64,000 nucleotides of DNA from Gammaproteobacteria bacterium LSUCC0096 (GTDB lineage: Bacteria; Pseudomonadota; Gammaproteobacteria; Pseudomonadales; Litorivicinaceae), in NCBI GenBank assembly GCA_008087055.1, contig VIEA01000001.1, forward strand, positions 446,514 through 510,513. Direction: 5' to 3'. Under the pieces are notes generated by a model. The model had not been told where the DNA came from. It saw only the letters and a program-made list of their open reading frames with translations, and made no database searches. Positions 32,825 through 52,181 of the stretch are shown piece by piece. The position numbers and the translations under genes were made by a program. The stretch's first letter is position 1. Every line of letters starts with the position of its first letter.

Positions 32825-34765
32825 ATGCCCGTAATTACTCTTCCTGATGGATCCAAGCGTGAGTTTGAAGGTCCTATTTGTGCTATGGACGTTGCCGAAT
32901 CAATCGGCCCAGGACTCGCAAAAGCGACGATTTGTGCTCGCGTTGACGGCGAGTTAAAAGATGCCTCTGACATCATTAGCCATGATGCGAATCTCTCACT
33001 AATTACAGCCAAGGATCCTGAAGGCCTTGAAGTGATCCGTCATTCATTTGCGCATTTGGTTGGTCATGCTGGAAAGCAGCTCTTTCCCGGAATCAAAATG
33101 GCTATCGGCCCTGTGATTGAACATGGTTTTTATTACGATGTTGATTATGAGCGGCAGCTGACGCCTGAAGATTTGGAGGCTCTTGAAAAGAGAATTCAAG
33201 AACTTGTAAAGACTGATTACCCTGTGATCAAGCAATGGGCGTCTCGGGAAGAGGCGATTGCAGAATTCAAAGAGCGTGAAGAGCCATATAAGCTTGAGAT
33301 CATCGAGCAGGACATTCCTAATGATGGTCATGCCATTGGTCTCTATCACCATCAGGAATACATGGATATGTGCCGTGGGCCGCATGTCCCCAATACTCGG
33401 TTCCTTAGGCACTTCAAGCTGACTAATGTGACCGGTGCGTACTGGCGCGGTAACGTCAACAACAAGCAACTTCAGCGGATCTACGGAATCGCCTTTACGG
33501 CCAAACAAGATTTGGATGCGCACTTGAAGTTCTTGGAAGAGGCAGCCAAACGCGATCACCGTAATCTGGCAAAGACTTTGGATCTCTTCCACTTGCAAGA
33601 AGAAGCGCCCGGTATGGTGTTCTGGCATCCGAATGGTTGGACCGTCTATCGTGTGCTCGAAGATTATATTCGCAACCGTCTTGAACACGCCGGTTATCAA
33701 GAAATTCGTACGCCGCAACTCGTTGATCAACGATTGTGGGAAGCTTCAGGCCACTGGGATAAGTACCAAGAGAATATGTTTGTGACATCGAGTGAGAGTC
33801 GCGATTATGCGGTCAAACCGATGAACTGCCCGTGCCATGTGCAGATCTACAACAAAAAGATCACATCCTACCGTGAACTCCCAATTCGTTTGGCAGAGTT
33901 TGGTTCGTGTCACCGGAATGAACCCTCAGGGTCGCTTCACGGATTGATGCGTGTGCGTAATTTTGTGCAGGACGATGCGCACATTTTCTGTACCGAAGAT
34001 CAGATCACAGATGAAGTGAAGACTTTTAACCAGTTGTTGACTGAGGTCTATCACGACATGGGCTTTGACGACATGATCGTGCGTATTTCAACACGGCCTG
34101 AAAAGCGGGTTGGTGATGATGCAACTTGGGATAAAGCTGAGAAAGCGCTATCTGATGCATTGGATGATTTGGGCGTCGAATGGGAAGAACTACCTGGTGA
34201 GGGTGCGTTCTATGGACCAAAAATTGAGTATTCGCTGAAAGATTGTCTTGGTCGTGTATGGCAATGTGGAACAATGCAGGTCGATTTTTCGATGCCGGGA
34301 CGTCTTGGCGCAGAATATGTGGCGGAAGATGGATCAAAACAAATTCCCGTGATGTTGCATCGTGCGATTTTGGGAAGTTTGGAGCGTTTTGTCGGGATTT
34401 TGCTTGAAAATACGGCTGGTTTGCTCCCGCCATGGCTTTCTCCAACGCAGGCAGTTGTGATGACAATCACTGATTCACAGCACGAATATGCGAAAAATGT
34501 GGAAAAAATGCTTGTTGCTCAAGGTCTTCGCGTTAAATCCGATTTGCGCAATGAGAAGATCGGCTATAAAATCCGCCACCACACTTTGCAGCGGGTCCCA
34601 TATTTACTTGTGATCGGCGATAAAGAAGTGGAAAACCAGCAGGTGGCTGTGCGGACCCGTTCCGGTGAAGATTTAGGTGCAATGAGCTTGGAGGCCTTTG
34701 CAAATAAGCTTCACAGCGAAATCGGGATGCGCGGTCGTTTTGGTATTGAATCGGAGACAGAGTAA
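32825..34765 (+). CDS. thrS: Threonyl-tRNA synthetase
   Basis: ThrS charges tRNA-Thr and edits mischarged serine. The ATG at 32825, after CGGAG, gives 646 residues; the TTG two codons earlier is less likely. In order: a TGS domain ([17 protein letters not shown]), the N2 editing domain ([19 protein letters not shown]), and the class II core with [11 protein letters not shown] (zinc-site Cys), motif 2 [19 protein letters not shown] and motif 3 [19 protein letters not shown]. An anticodon-binding domain is at the end. It starts the thrS-infC-rpmI-rplT block; its stop TAA shares a base with the infC start. Confidence 0.97.
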
Positions 34766-35307
34766 TCAGAAGAGCACAACCCAAAGGTGCGCCGGGTGAA
34801 AAGCGCACACTGATCAATGAAGAAATTCGCGCTCTTAAAGTGCGTTTGATCGGACCAACAGGTGAGCAAATTGGTGTTGTTAACACGAATGATGCGATTG
34901 TTGCCGCTCGTGAGAATGATCTTGATCTTGTGTTGATTGCGGAGTCTTCGGATCCTCCGGTTGCGAAAATCATGGATTTTGGTAAGCGGTTGTATGAAGA
35001 GAAGAAAGCGAAAGCAGCTGCAAAGAAAAAGCAGCACCAACTGCAGGTTAAAGAAATTAAGTTTCGTCCGGGAACGGACATAGGAGACTACCAGGTAAAA
35101 CTGCGCAACCTGGTGCGTTTCCTCGAGGACGGCGATAAGGCCAAGGTAACCATTCGGTTCCGCGGTCGCGAAATGGCCCACCAAGAACTCGGCATGCAGA
35201 TGCTCGAGCGTTTGGAAAAGGACCTCGAAGAGTATGGTTCAGTCGAAGCGCGCCCTAAATTAGAGGGCCGTCAGATGATCATGGTCTTCGCGCCGAAAAA
35301 GAAGTGA
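34765..35307 (+). CDS. infC: Translation initiation factor IF-3, ATC start
   Basis: IF-3 binds the 30S subunit, prevents early 50S joining and discriminates against non-canonical start codons. In frame upstream of the first GTG (34840) the reading frame encodes [19 protein letters not shown], the conserved N-terminal segment of IF-3. It runs back to an ATC at 34765 that shares its A with the thrS stop. GGAG at 34753-34756 is 8 nt upstream. This gives 180 residues, the length of E. coli IF-3, whose gene starts with ATT. Motifs: [14 protein letters not shown] and [16 protein letters not shown]. Starting at GTG would lose 25 conserved residues. Confidence 0.93.
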
Positions 35308-49177: not shown

Positions 49178-49924
49178 TTAGAACATGTGCTGTCCGCCAT
49201 TAATTGCGAGGTTTGAACCCGTCACAAATGCAGCCCGCTCAGACGCGAGGAAGGCCACGGCGTAGGCAATTTCATCCGGATTACCGAGGCGTCCAACAGG
49301 GATGGTCGATGCGATTTTCTCGAGAATTTCATCACCAATGGCTGCGACCATCGCGGTCATGATGTAGCCAGGGCTTATCGTATTTACGGTGACACCTTTT
49401 GATGCGACTTCTTGAGCGAGTGATTTTGTAAAACCATGCATACCTGCCTTTGCTGCTGCATAGTTTGATTGGCCAAATTGTCCTTTTTGACCGTTTACCG
49501 AGCTGATGTTGATCACTCGGCCCCACTTTTCTTCGAGCATTCCGTTGATCACGAGGCGTGTCATGTTAAAGACCGAACGTAAGTTCGCATGCATGACCTG
49601 ATCCCATTGTTCGAGAGTCATTTTACGGAAAGTCGAATCACGCGTGATTCCGGCGTTATTGACGAGGCAATGAATATTGCCGTATCTCTCCACGATCCCC
49701 TCGATGCATTGACGTGCTGATTCAGAATCAGATACATCGCCGTATGCGATATCGAGCTCGAAGCCAGCTGCGCGCTGCTCTTCTTGCCATGCTTTGGCTT
49801 TGTCGTGGTTACCGCCAGAGTTGTATCCAGCAACAACTGTAAATCCCTGGGTAAAAAGTTCTTGGCAGATAGCGGTTCCAATACCACCAGTACCGCCTGT
49901 TACTAATGCAATACGCTTAGACAT
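49178..49924 (-). CDS. phaB: Acetoacetyl-CoA reductase PhaB
   Basis: PhaB reduces acetoacetyl-CoA to (R)-3-hydroxybutyryl-CoA with NADPH, supplying the PHB monomer. The 248-residue SDR has TGGTGGIG, VNNAGITRDSTFRKM, the catalytic Ser-Tyr-Lys in ISSVNGQKGQFGQSNYAAAK, and the PhaB-typical TVVAGYNSG and GYIMTAMVAAI. These distinguish it from FabG. No phaA (thiolase) gene is in the window. It ends at a strong terminator and is divergent from tusA. Confidence 0.94.
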   Translation of the reverse strand: MSKRIALVTGGTGGIGTAICQELFTQGFTVVAGYNSGGNHDKAKAWQEEQRAAGFELDIAYGDVSDSESARQCIEGIVERYGNIHCLVNNAGITRDSTFRKMTLEQWDQVMHANLRSVFNMTRLVINGMLEEKWGRVINISSVNGQKGQFGQSNYAAAKAGMHGFTKSLAQEVASKGVTVNTISPGYIMTAMVAAIGDEILEKIASTIPVGRLGNPDEIAYAVAFLASERAAFVTGSNLAINGGQHMF

Positions 49925-49993
49925 GCTGAGCTCCGTGCAGTTCTTATTAAAAAAGCAGTACCATTAGTCACCGGATTGAAAAGAGATGCAAGC

Positions 49994-50263
49994 GTGTCTG
50001 ACCCAAAGTCGCCCACTCCATTAGTCTCAGAGACCATTGATGCAACTGGCTTAAAATGTCCTGAGCCTGTGATGATGTTGCGTAATGCCCTAAGAGAAGT
50101 TGAAGCGGGAACCTGTATCAAACTCGTCGCAACAGACCCGTCGACGCTCCGTGATATCCCGACTATGTGTCGTTTTATGCACCACCAATTGGTGTCACTA
50201 GTAGAATTGGATGGGCGCTATGAATTTGTTGTATCTGCCCGCGCGCTTAGTCCGCAAGACTGA
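49994..50263 (+). CDS. tusA: Sulfurtransferase TusA
   Basis: TusA accepts persulfide sulfur from IscS and passes it on for 2-thiouridine in tRNA and other pathways. The 89-residue protein has the signature ATGLKCPEPVMMLRNALRE with the active Cys22, and DPSTLRDIPTMCRFMHHQL, the standard second half. I choose the GTG at 49994, which has AGAGA upstream; a TTG at 49976 would add six residues. Its last 46 bp overlap the convergent DUF3080 gene. MnmC, encoded at 7-9 kb, acts on the same wobble base. Confidence 0.93.
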   Translation: MSDPKSPTPLVSETIDATGLKCPEPVMMLRNALREVEAGTCIKLVATDPSTLRDIPTMCRFMHHQLVSLVELDGRYEFVVSARALSPQD

Positions 50264-51237
50264 AGAAGTCGCTGCCAATTGGTAATGTGCATGCCGAGTT
50301 CTTTTCGGAGCTCACCTCGATAGCCGGGCGGCAAAGCTAATAGAGCGTCGACCAACGTGTCGTGTGTCCAGAGTGTGATCGGAAGTCCAGACCAGATGGA
50401 ATTCAACTCATCAAGTCCTCGGGTAATCGATGACAGCTTCGGTTGGATGGTGCCGCCAAAGTAATTTCGGATAAATATTTGCATATTCCGACCACGTTCG
50501 GTCGGAGTACCCATCGGACACATTTGATTCGCTTCCAAGGCTGAACGCTGCAATGTATTTGCAGTTTGAAGCCAAATCCGCGCCTCGATGATGGCTTGAT
50601 GTAACGACCCATGGTGTTGTGTTTGACTCCATGTAAGGAGCGATTCTTCAAACTGAGTAATCGTTGCGTTAGATGGTGGGGCGGCTTTCCTTAATGCTTG
50701 AGTAAGCAACTGTGCGACAGGCTGCGTTCGGTTAATGTACTCGATCCGGCTCTCGGCGAGTGTGGCAAACGGCTGGTTGATTTTTGAGTGAATACGGTCT
50801 GCTTCCTCGCTCTGCGTTAACAGTTTGATTACCGAGGCTTCAACATCTTTGGTCTTTGCAATACGGGCTTTTTGAAACCATTCTTGATCATTCAATGGAC
50901 TGCATTGATCGAGACCATATTTCAGTGCCCATTCATACATCAGTCGAGTAGATTCTTGCTTTTGTCTGCCAAGACTCGAGTTGCGTTCTGCAATGAGTGG
51001 TAGCAACCCACACTCGCCAAGTTCTAGAGCATCACCAAAACTGATGCGCGTGTCGCTCAAATCAAGATCAGGAGTCTGGGCTTTGATTCGGGTTTGGGGT
51101 GGTAGGGCGATCGGATCTTGTCCTAGGATGGAAGCAATTCGATCCAAATCACCCTGGTTAGGGGCGAACGAGTTCTGTGTCCAATCACAGCCGATTAAAC
51201 AAAGTGCGGGTAGCCAAATCAGTTTCGATAAAATGAT
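50218..51237 (-). CDS. DUF3080 lipoprotein, probable ATC (or ATT) start
   Basis: A DUF3080-family protein of unknown function, recognised by GLLPLIAERNSSLGRQK and TRLMYEWALKYGL, with the late segment FIRNYFGGTIQPKLSSI. The first standard start codon is a TTG at 51147, which would begin after the signal sequence. Upstream in frame, however, the bases encode KLIWLPALCLIGCDW, a classic lipoprotein signal with lipobox LIGC, and there is no ATG, GTG or TTG. The best starts are ATC at 51237 (GAGGG 5 nt upstream; 339 residues) or ATT at 51234. The gene overlaps epmC by 53 bp, from which it is probably coupled. Confidence 0.75.
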   Translation of the reverse strand: MILSKLIWLPALCLIGCDWTQNSFAPNQGDLDRIASILGQDPIALPPQTRIKAQTPDLDLSDTRISFGDALELGECGLLPLIAERNSSLGRQKQESTRLMYEWALKYGLDQCSPLNDQEWFQKARIAKTKDVEASVIKLLTQSEEADRIHSKINQPFATLAESRIEYINRTQPVAQLLTQALRKAAPPSNATITQFEESLLTWSQTQHHGSLHQAIIEARIWLQTANTLQRSALEANQMCPMGTPTERGRNMQIFIRNYFGGTIQPKLSSITRGLDELNSIWSGLPITLWTHDTLVDALLALPPGYRGELRKELGMHITNWQRLLQSCGLSARADTTNS

Positions 51238-51700
51238 ACATGCCCTCGATAACGCGTTTCGCAGTGGCCGGAGGTCGCTCTTTCATTTCTATGTATGCGT
51301 TTTCTAAGTTCTCAAGGAAAATAGATGAGGCGGGACGACCAGAGAAATCATCGAGGCTTGGAGAAAAAGGGATTTTCCAAACCTCGCAAAACAGTTTTTC
51401 GAGTCCCTGAGGTCTTGCTTCAACTTCCTCGAATCGCAATTGCTCATCAGCATTTCGACCACAGGGAGCATACCAAAAACCAAAATCATCAATCGTTCTT
51501 CGCTTGGATCCGGCTAGACAGTAGTGTGCAAGTTCGTGGAAAAGGCTACGGATGTAATCATCTCGAAAAAAAAGAATTGCAGGGCTGTTCTTTTTTGGTG
51601 CTTGATAAAAGGGCTCAGGAGCTCCGCCTTCAATGCGGAGCTCTGGGAGAATTTGTTTTAACGCGCGAATCACAGCGTTTAATACGGCTTGCTCAGGCAT
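51185..51700 (-). CDS. epmC: Elongation factor P hydroxylase EpmC
   Basis: EpmC (YfcM) hydroxylates the beta-lysylated lysine of elongation factor P. The 171-residue protein has LFFRDDYIRSLFHELAHYC, cited by its HELAH metal-site core, DFGFWYAPCGRNADEQ and FEEVEARPQGLEKLF, all family hallmarks. The ATG at 51700 matches the family N-terminus (E. coli protein about 182 residues). The frame is open to 51874 but those residues are unconserved and overlap the divergent gene. EpmA, EpmB and EF-P are not in the window. Confidence 0.93.
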   Translation of the reverse strand: MPEQAVLNAVIRALKQILPELRIEGGAPEPFYQAPKKNSPAILFFRDDYIRSLFHELAHYCLAGSKRRTIDDFGFWYAPCGRNADEQLRFEEVEARPQGLEKLFCEVWKIPFSPSLDDFSGRPASSIFLENLENAYIEMKERPPATAKRVIEGMYHFIETDLATRTLFNRL

Positions 51701-51716
51701 TAGAGGATCATCACTG

Positions 51717-52181
51717 ATGGCATGGTTGTGGATTGTACTTGGATTGCTGGCCGTCGTGGGATCGATCACTTGGATTCTTCCCTCACCAATGGAGCGTCGC
51801 CAAGGTGAGCGGCGAATGGCCGCTTTGAAACTTGGCATGAAAGTCCGCATGCTTTCGGTTGATGATTGGGTCAAAGAGCGGCTGGATGTTGTTCAGTTGT
51901 CTCAATACTTGATCTGGACTGATAAGAAGCCACGAAGCGCGGCTTTATGGAGGGTCCCGGATCGGGATGAACCATGGGCATCACCGCCTAAAGCGAATAG
52001 TTGGGATTTATTATCGGGTGAATTTGGCGACCTTCTGCAATCGCTGCCAAGTGATATTGTGGGTGTAGGCGCGGAGAATGGATGTGTTTGGGTTGCTCTT
52101 GATGATGCCAAGGCTGCTATTGAACCTGATGTCATCAAGCCTTTGCTTGATCAAATATTGGTCGCATTAGTGCATCGATGA
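51717..52181 (+). CDS. N-terminally anchored hypothetical protein
   Basis: A 154-residue protein with one N-terminal transmembrane helix (about 2-20: AWLWIVLGLLAVVGSITWI) followed by the basic RRQGERR and a soluble domain with WVKERLDVVQLSQYLIW and ENGCVWVALDD. I do not recognise the family; the topology puts the domain in the cytoplasm. The ATG at 51717 has AGAGGA 9 nt upstream. It is divergent from epmC with only 16 bp between starts, so the promoters must overlap coding sequence. Confidence 0.7.
   Translation: MAWLWIVLGLLAVVGSITWILPSPMERRQGERRMAALKLGMKVRMLSVDDWVKERLDVVQLSQYLIWTDKKPRSAALWRVPDRDEPWASPPKANSWDLLSGEFGDLLQSLPSDIVGVGAENGCVWVALDDAKAAIEPDVIKPLLDQILVALVHR

Follow-up and report, generated by a model that had tools for sequence, protein, structure and literature searches.

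Few bacterial genes are described as starting with AUU, partly since genome annotation is geared to ATG, GTG and TTG (PMC5472188), and a reconstruction of start codon evolution reports one switch to AUU among 61,358 ancestral AUG starts (PMC5622118). The precedents for non-canonical starts include infC and pcnB (PMC9410913), cvfC1 and ccpN in S. aureus (PMC13009471), and sigR of Streptomyces, whose GTC start is repressed by IF3 (PMC5472188). According to PMC5472188, IF3 destabilises the initiation complexes formed at non-canonical starts and thereby represses such starts, and the protein yield of AUU and AUA starts in S. aureus is given as below that of AUG (PMC13009471). A search of titles and abstract openings in the open-access literature returned, among the matches listed, no paper on the start codon of DUF3080 or on the DUF3080 protein, the sole one containing the term "DUF3080" being concerned with plant callose synthases.

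We analysed a 64,000-nucleotide stretch (hereafter the window) of contig VIEA01000001.1 from strain LSUCC0096, in which a DUF3080 gene on the minus strand probably begins with AUU inside the 3′ end of epmC. LSUCC0096 is an OM252 clade strain described with 4 scaffolds, 1,935,310 bp and an N50 of 1,442,657 (PMC8269220); the genome used here has 1,935,310 bases in 4 contigs, 1,442,657 of them in the window's contig. The features considered are the following.

50218..51234, minus strand: DUF3080 lipoprotein gene, 338 aa from the putative ATT start to the stop; Pfam PF11279, E 4.3e-37
50220-50218, minus strand: DUF3080 stop codon
51232..51234, minus strand: putative start codon ATT (AUU), present in 12/17 genus genomes and aligned with the ATG of G002 and G005
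51235..51237, minus strand: ATC, alternative candidate start, not conserved (3/12 ATT genomes)
51243..51247, minus strand: Shine-Dalgarno GAGGG, with its core GAGG (51247-51244) 9 nt before the ATT and invariant in 12/12
51187..51234, minus strand: predicted lipoprotein signal peptide with the lipobox LIG-C at its end, G-C in 16/16 aligned genus proteins
51189-51187, minus strand: lipobox Cys codon TGT, TGT in 12/12
51145..51147, minus strand: TTG, first canonical in-frame start, downstream of the lipobox Cys
51185..51700, minus strand: epmC (EF-P hydroxylase); Pfam PF04315, E 2.7e-30; the start at 51700 is a guess
34765..35307, plus strand: infC (IF3) with ATC at its start; ATC or ATT in 13/13 genus loci read

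Bacterial lipoproteins begin with a charged N-terminal region, followed by a hydrophobic stretch and a lipobox ending in G, A or S before the Cys. The DUF3080 protein, which scores 128.4 bits on PF11279 against a curated Pfam cut-off of 26.5, carries these elements (LSKLIWLPALCLIG-C), and the G-C pair is found in all 16 aligned genus proteins; by its sequence the product is a lipoprotein, with predicted lipidation of the Cys and predicted membrane location. Read on the minus strand, the codons of the DUF3080 frame are AGG GCA TGT ATC ATT TTA TCG AAA CTG ATT TGG CTA CCC GCA CTT TGT TTA ATC GGC TGT GAT TGG, and the translation from the ATT is ILSKLIWLPALCLIGC-DW, the first residue presumably being fMet. 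The preliminary description had placed the lipoprotein signal upstream of the first standard start with no ATG, GTG or TTG before it, and this is what the window contains: the TTG at 51147 follows the lipobox Cys, and the frame has no ATG, GTG or TTG either in the 16 open codons upstream of the ATT or from there up to the Cys. Its placing of GAGGG 5 nt before the ATC and 8 nt before the ATT is likewise correct in coordinates, spacing and sequence. It had also warned that gene finders would trim the signal. The lipobox G-C in 16/16 proteins and the Pfam scores agree with this: the protein read from 51231 and the one truncated to the TTG score equally on PF11279 (128.4 bits each), so that a TTG truncation of DUF3080 would escape notice.

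The AlphaFold2 model, for which the window's protein was aligned with 30 others from public contigs (31 in all), is all-helical with a mean pLDDT of 85.7 and a pTM of 0.83, and DUF3080 is thus predicted to be an all-helical protein. Foldseek found no match of this model in the PDB at E <= 0.001; the best VIA-align hit, with a Z of 6.8 to an unrelated helical protein, lies within chance for helical bundles, and we draw from these searches neither a function nor a claim of a novel fold. None of 38 pattern-matching stretches on viral contigs encodes a relative. In the three genomes of the sister genus (g2), the DUF3080 proteins (loci L010, L012 and L013) have no lipobox Cys and an N-terminus that is merely hydrophobic, and the common need may thus be membrane anchoring rather than lipidation. 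At its 3′ end, the gene overlaps a TusA-family gene (49976-50263, plus strand; PF01206) tail to tail over 46 nt (50218-50263); with the epmC overlap described below, DUF3080 overlaps its neighbours at both ends. A scan of 49900-52000 gave no promoter, where shuffled sequences have 2.6 on average; the one site resembling a terminator is on the opposite strand and within chance.

We then compared the start site across the genus. An HMM search found DUF3080 in 18 of 22 same-genus genomes, the window's genome counted, and the 5′ end was readable in 16 of these 18; a seventeenth genome, G007, was reached via epmC and enters the tally of 17 while staying outside the codon statistics of the 12 genomes with ATT. 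The counts leave out G003 and G014, in which a contig end cuts the 5′ end of the gene, and G010, G012 and G019, in which neither DUF3080 nor EpmC gave an HMM match. The preliminary description had proposed aligning the gene with its relatives, and the alignment shows ATT at the site of 51234-51232 in 12 of the 17 genomes, among them the isolate HIMB30, which has a TTG besides its ATT, and the records AG-900-B21 and AG-915-K04, ATG starts in four (G002, G005, G006 and G020), and AGT followed by TTG in G007. With the ATT standing in 12 genomes, a sequencing error at this site, which that description had named as a way of being wrong, is very unlikely. When the proteins are aligned, the initiator Met of both G002 and G005 matches the ATT position with no gap; G006 and G020 have signal peptides shorter by one residue, which align with a gap. 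A tree of the mature proteins (16 genus and 6 outgroup rows) groups the 12 ATT rows into one clade with support 100/98, and on this tree the difference between ATG and ATT takes a single change. Note that this difference is one event, so that the retention of ATT is one history and not many.

Within the clade, the ATT and the Shine-Dalgarno core stand out from their surroundings. From −45 to +119 nt around the ATT, the 12 genomes agree at 51 of 165 positions, and the invariant runs of at least three bases are GAGG, ATTT, TGT, CCA and GAT, of which GAGG is the Shine-Dalgarno core, ATTT contains the putative start and TGT encodes the lipobox Cys. Identity in all 12 genomes holds for 9 of 309 codon columns; six of these are Trp or Met codons, which leaves the start ATT, the codon TGT of the Cys and a GAT. 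With Met and Trp set aside, 95 columns hold a single amino acid, and 3 of these use one codon. Every one of the three other all-Ile columns mixes ATT and ATC, and among 77 control codon columns invariant at the first two bases, 1 is invariant at the third as well. Codon and Shine-Dalgarno core are conserved beyond the neighbouring codons in all 12 genomes counted in the ATT clade; G007, which lies outside these counts, is the exception. Synonymous sites are near saturation, with usable dS in 14 of 66 pairs, and in these 14 pairs the mature part of DUF3080 has a median dN/dS of 0.17 and a maximum of 0.25; it is under purifying selection.

Measured between the ATT and the stop of epmC, the overlap of epmC and DUF3080 is 50 nt long. 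It involves the last 17 epmC codons including the stop (the listed epmC reading frame begins at the TTG at 51874), and the DUF3080 signal peptide lies entirely within it, dual-coded in the other frame. In the overlap, 9, 8 and 13 of 14 columns are variable at DUF3080 codon positions 1, 2 and 3, respectively, and the median dN/dS, for which 43 of 66 pairs were usable in the DUF3080 frame and 59 of 66 in the EpmC frame, is 0.37 and 1.27, respectively; G016 was excluded from the EpmC codon-position counts and from the EpmC-frame columns. The constrained frame in the overlap is thus that of DUF3080, and the EpmC frame shows no purifying selection. As both the variation and the dN/dS follow the DUF3080 frame, EpmC is an unlikely cause of the retention of the ATT. 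At the site itself, the A and the middle T of the ATT supply bases 2 and 3 of an EpmC codon for His, Asp or Tyr, the last T of the ATT opens a Phe codon, the EpmC context being NAT TTY in fixed kind. Among 16 columns of the EpmC frame that end in a pyrimidine (11 genomes), the last base is invariant in 4, the ATT site being one of these, so that the wobble argument alone is weak. However, at the site of the ATG, the EpmC residue is Val in G002 and Ala in G005, which indicates that EpmC can bear the base that gives ATG. The EpmC stop lies 50, 71 or 152 nt past the ATT (71 nt in L014 and 152 nt in L019), and the length of the EpmC tail is therefore not conserved. In-frame stops give epmC a pseudogene-like appearance at two loci, L094 (G016) and L095 (G007), the contig of the latter genome ending within DUF3080. 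G016 nevertheless retains the GAGG, the ATT and an intact DUF3080 frame; the break in its epmC may be of any age, and may be an assembly error.

Several other readings of the start site have to be weighed. Initiation at the ATC (51237) in the window's genome, alone or together with the ATT, would profit from a position closer to GAGGG (the GAGG core is 6 nt away, a more usual distance than that of the ATT), and the ATC is shared with the near relatives G013 and G015; but codon −1 is ATC in three of the 12 ATT genomes and GCC, GCT or AGG in the other nine, the ATT being present in all 12. Because of these counts, and because the ATT aligns with the sister ATG, we prefer the ATT and regard a role for the ATC as distinctly improbable; of the earlier proposal of ATC or ATT, the comparison supports a non-canonical start and the ATT, and not the ATC. 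It is also rather unlikely that DUF3080 translation in the clade usually starts at a downstream UUG (or GUG) within codons +1 to +4, with the ATT held by EpmC coding alone. TTG does occupy codon +1 in five of the 12 ATT genomes (G008, G011, G015, G018 and G021), and codon +2 as well in three of these five, G017 has GTG at +4, and the AGT of G007 indicates that the ATT site can be lost where a TTG adjoins; in genomes with such a TTG or GTG, AUU and UUG may share initiation, or UUG may serve alone. However, six of the 12, including the window's genome, offer no usable canonical in-frame start: four (G000, G004, G013 and G016) have no canonical codon at all before the Cys, and the only TTG of the other two (G001 and G009) is at +12; it precedes the Cys by just three codons, which is too late for the signal peptide. 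A non-canonical start thus appears to be needed in these six. Moreover, the codon after the start changes eight times among the 16 genus rows, the four ATG rows counted, against one change for the start codon, and the EpmC frame that would have to hold the ATT lacks purifying selection in the overlap.

Joining of EpmC to DUF3080 by frameshifting, or initiation at the upstream EpmC-frame ATG followed by a frame shift, could be suggested by that ATG, which 11 of the 12 genomes carry 4 nt upstream of the ATT. We consider it very improbable, as the twelfth, G016, has no EpmC-frame ATG and a broken epmC and yet keeps GAGG, ATT and DUF3080, as the EpmC stop shifts in position, and as a fusion would bury the lipobox. 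There is similarly very little to be expected of the notion that the start is lost and the gene decaying: a weak codon does stand in place of an ATG, but the frame is open to the stop in 11 of 12 genomes, the twelfth (G015) being cut by a contig end, and the mature part has the low dN/dS given above. A reading that deserves more weight, and that is compatible with the AUU start site, is that the AUU is a neutral accident in a gene of which little protein is needed, without any regulation. In its favour are the single change on the tree, the loss of the ATT in G007 and the folding of the RNA at the start site, where five sequences gave z-scores of 0.29 to 1.45, i.e. a stability not above that of shuffles. 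Against it, the ATT persists while synonymous sites saturate, and ATG is one base away, with EpmC seemingly tolerant of it (Val or Ala in the two sister genomes). We thus favour an AUU that is actively kept over tolerated drift, the neutral reading being quite possible although not the one we would expect.

Taken together, these comparisons point to the following scheme, which we consider likely: DUF3080 would be a membrane lipoprotein whose translation starts at an AUU positioned by GAGG and retained in the clade, with initiation that is probably weak and discriminated against by IF3. Initiation would occur at the AUU (51234-51232), read as fMet by the initiator tRNA, and the conserved GAGG nine bases upstream, within the 3′ end of epmC, would position the ribosome. 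The 16S rRNA 3′ end of the genome carries CACCTCCTT, whose CCTC can pair with GAGG; note that the Shine-Dalgarno sequence in the window pairs over four bases only. Sister lineages have ATG and the clade of 12 sampled OM252 genomes has AUU throughout; the direction of change was presumably from ATG to ATT, with the AUU retained thereafter. With weak initiation of this kind, the lipoprotein would be made at a low level that responds to the availability of IF3.

The preliminary description had remarked that infC itself seems to use ATC, and the genus bears this out: infC has ATC at its start in the window, overlapping the thrS stop by one base, and across the 13 genus loci read the codon there is ATC in 10 and ATT in 3. 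This count leaves out L046, which is partial, and two sister-genus loci, at both of which ATC and ATG codons are available. We also considered pcnB as a second AUU gene of the genus. Of its 13 loci above the cut-off, 12 were read, and as all 12 have canonical codons close to the start, the idea finds no support. By analogy with the described systems, control of DUF3080 by IF3 is plausible. That the AUU start, nested in epmC, serves OM252 bacteria to throttle an envelope lipoprotein in an IF3-sensitive way is a proposal we hold tentatively, giving it somewhat less than an even chance. If true, it would add a conserved AUU-controlled gammaproteobacterial gene to infC and pcnB and tie an envelope protein to the state of translation initiation. 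Here comparative genomics alone points to an AUU start with its lipobox and Shine-Dalgarno sequence, and the clade includes strains in culture; the approach, i.e. an invariant near-cognate codon amid saturated synonymous sites, could be extended to other genes with a signal peptide upstream of the first canonical start.

One likeness is to E. coli infC, in that an AUU stands at the start in a gammaproteobacterium and the near-cognate codon is kept in relatives; however, infC encodes IF3 and is under autocontrol by it, whereas DUF3080 is an unrelated lipoprotein for which such feedback is not expected. With E. coli pcnB, where AUU is described as limiting expression (PMC9410913), DUF3080 shares an AUU on a gene unrelated to initiation and, probably, its use as a throttle on output, although the protein differs. 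A conserved non-canonical start combined with a conserved Shine-Dalgarno sequence is common to DUF3080 and to cvfC1 (AUU) and ccpN (AUA) of S. aureus; these two are described as shown by ribosome profiling and reporters and as having an extended Shine-Dalgarno sequence (PMC13009471), whereas the case for DUF3080 is comparative and its core has four to five bases. Streptomyces sigR, in which a rare start sets a low level under IF3, can be likened to the scheme proposed here (PMC5472188), although its codon and phylum are different and IF3 control is described as tested for sigR (PMC5472188). With these likenesses and differences, the DUF3080 start would join the known conserved non-canonical starts of infC, pcnB, sigR, cvfC1 and ccpN.
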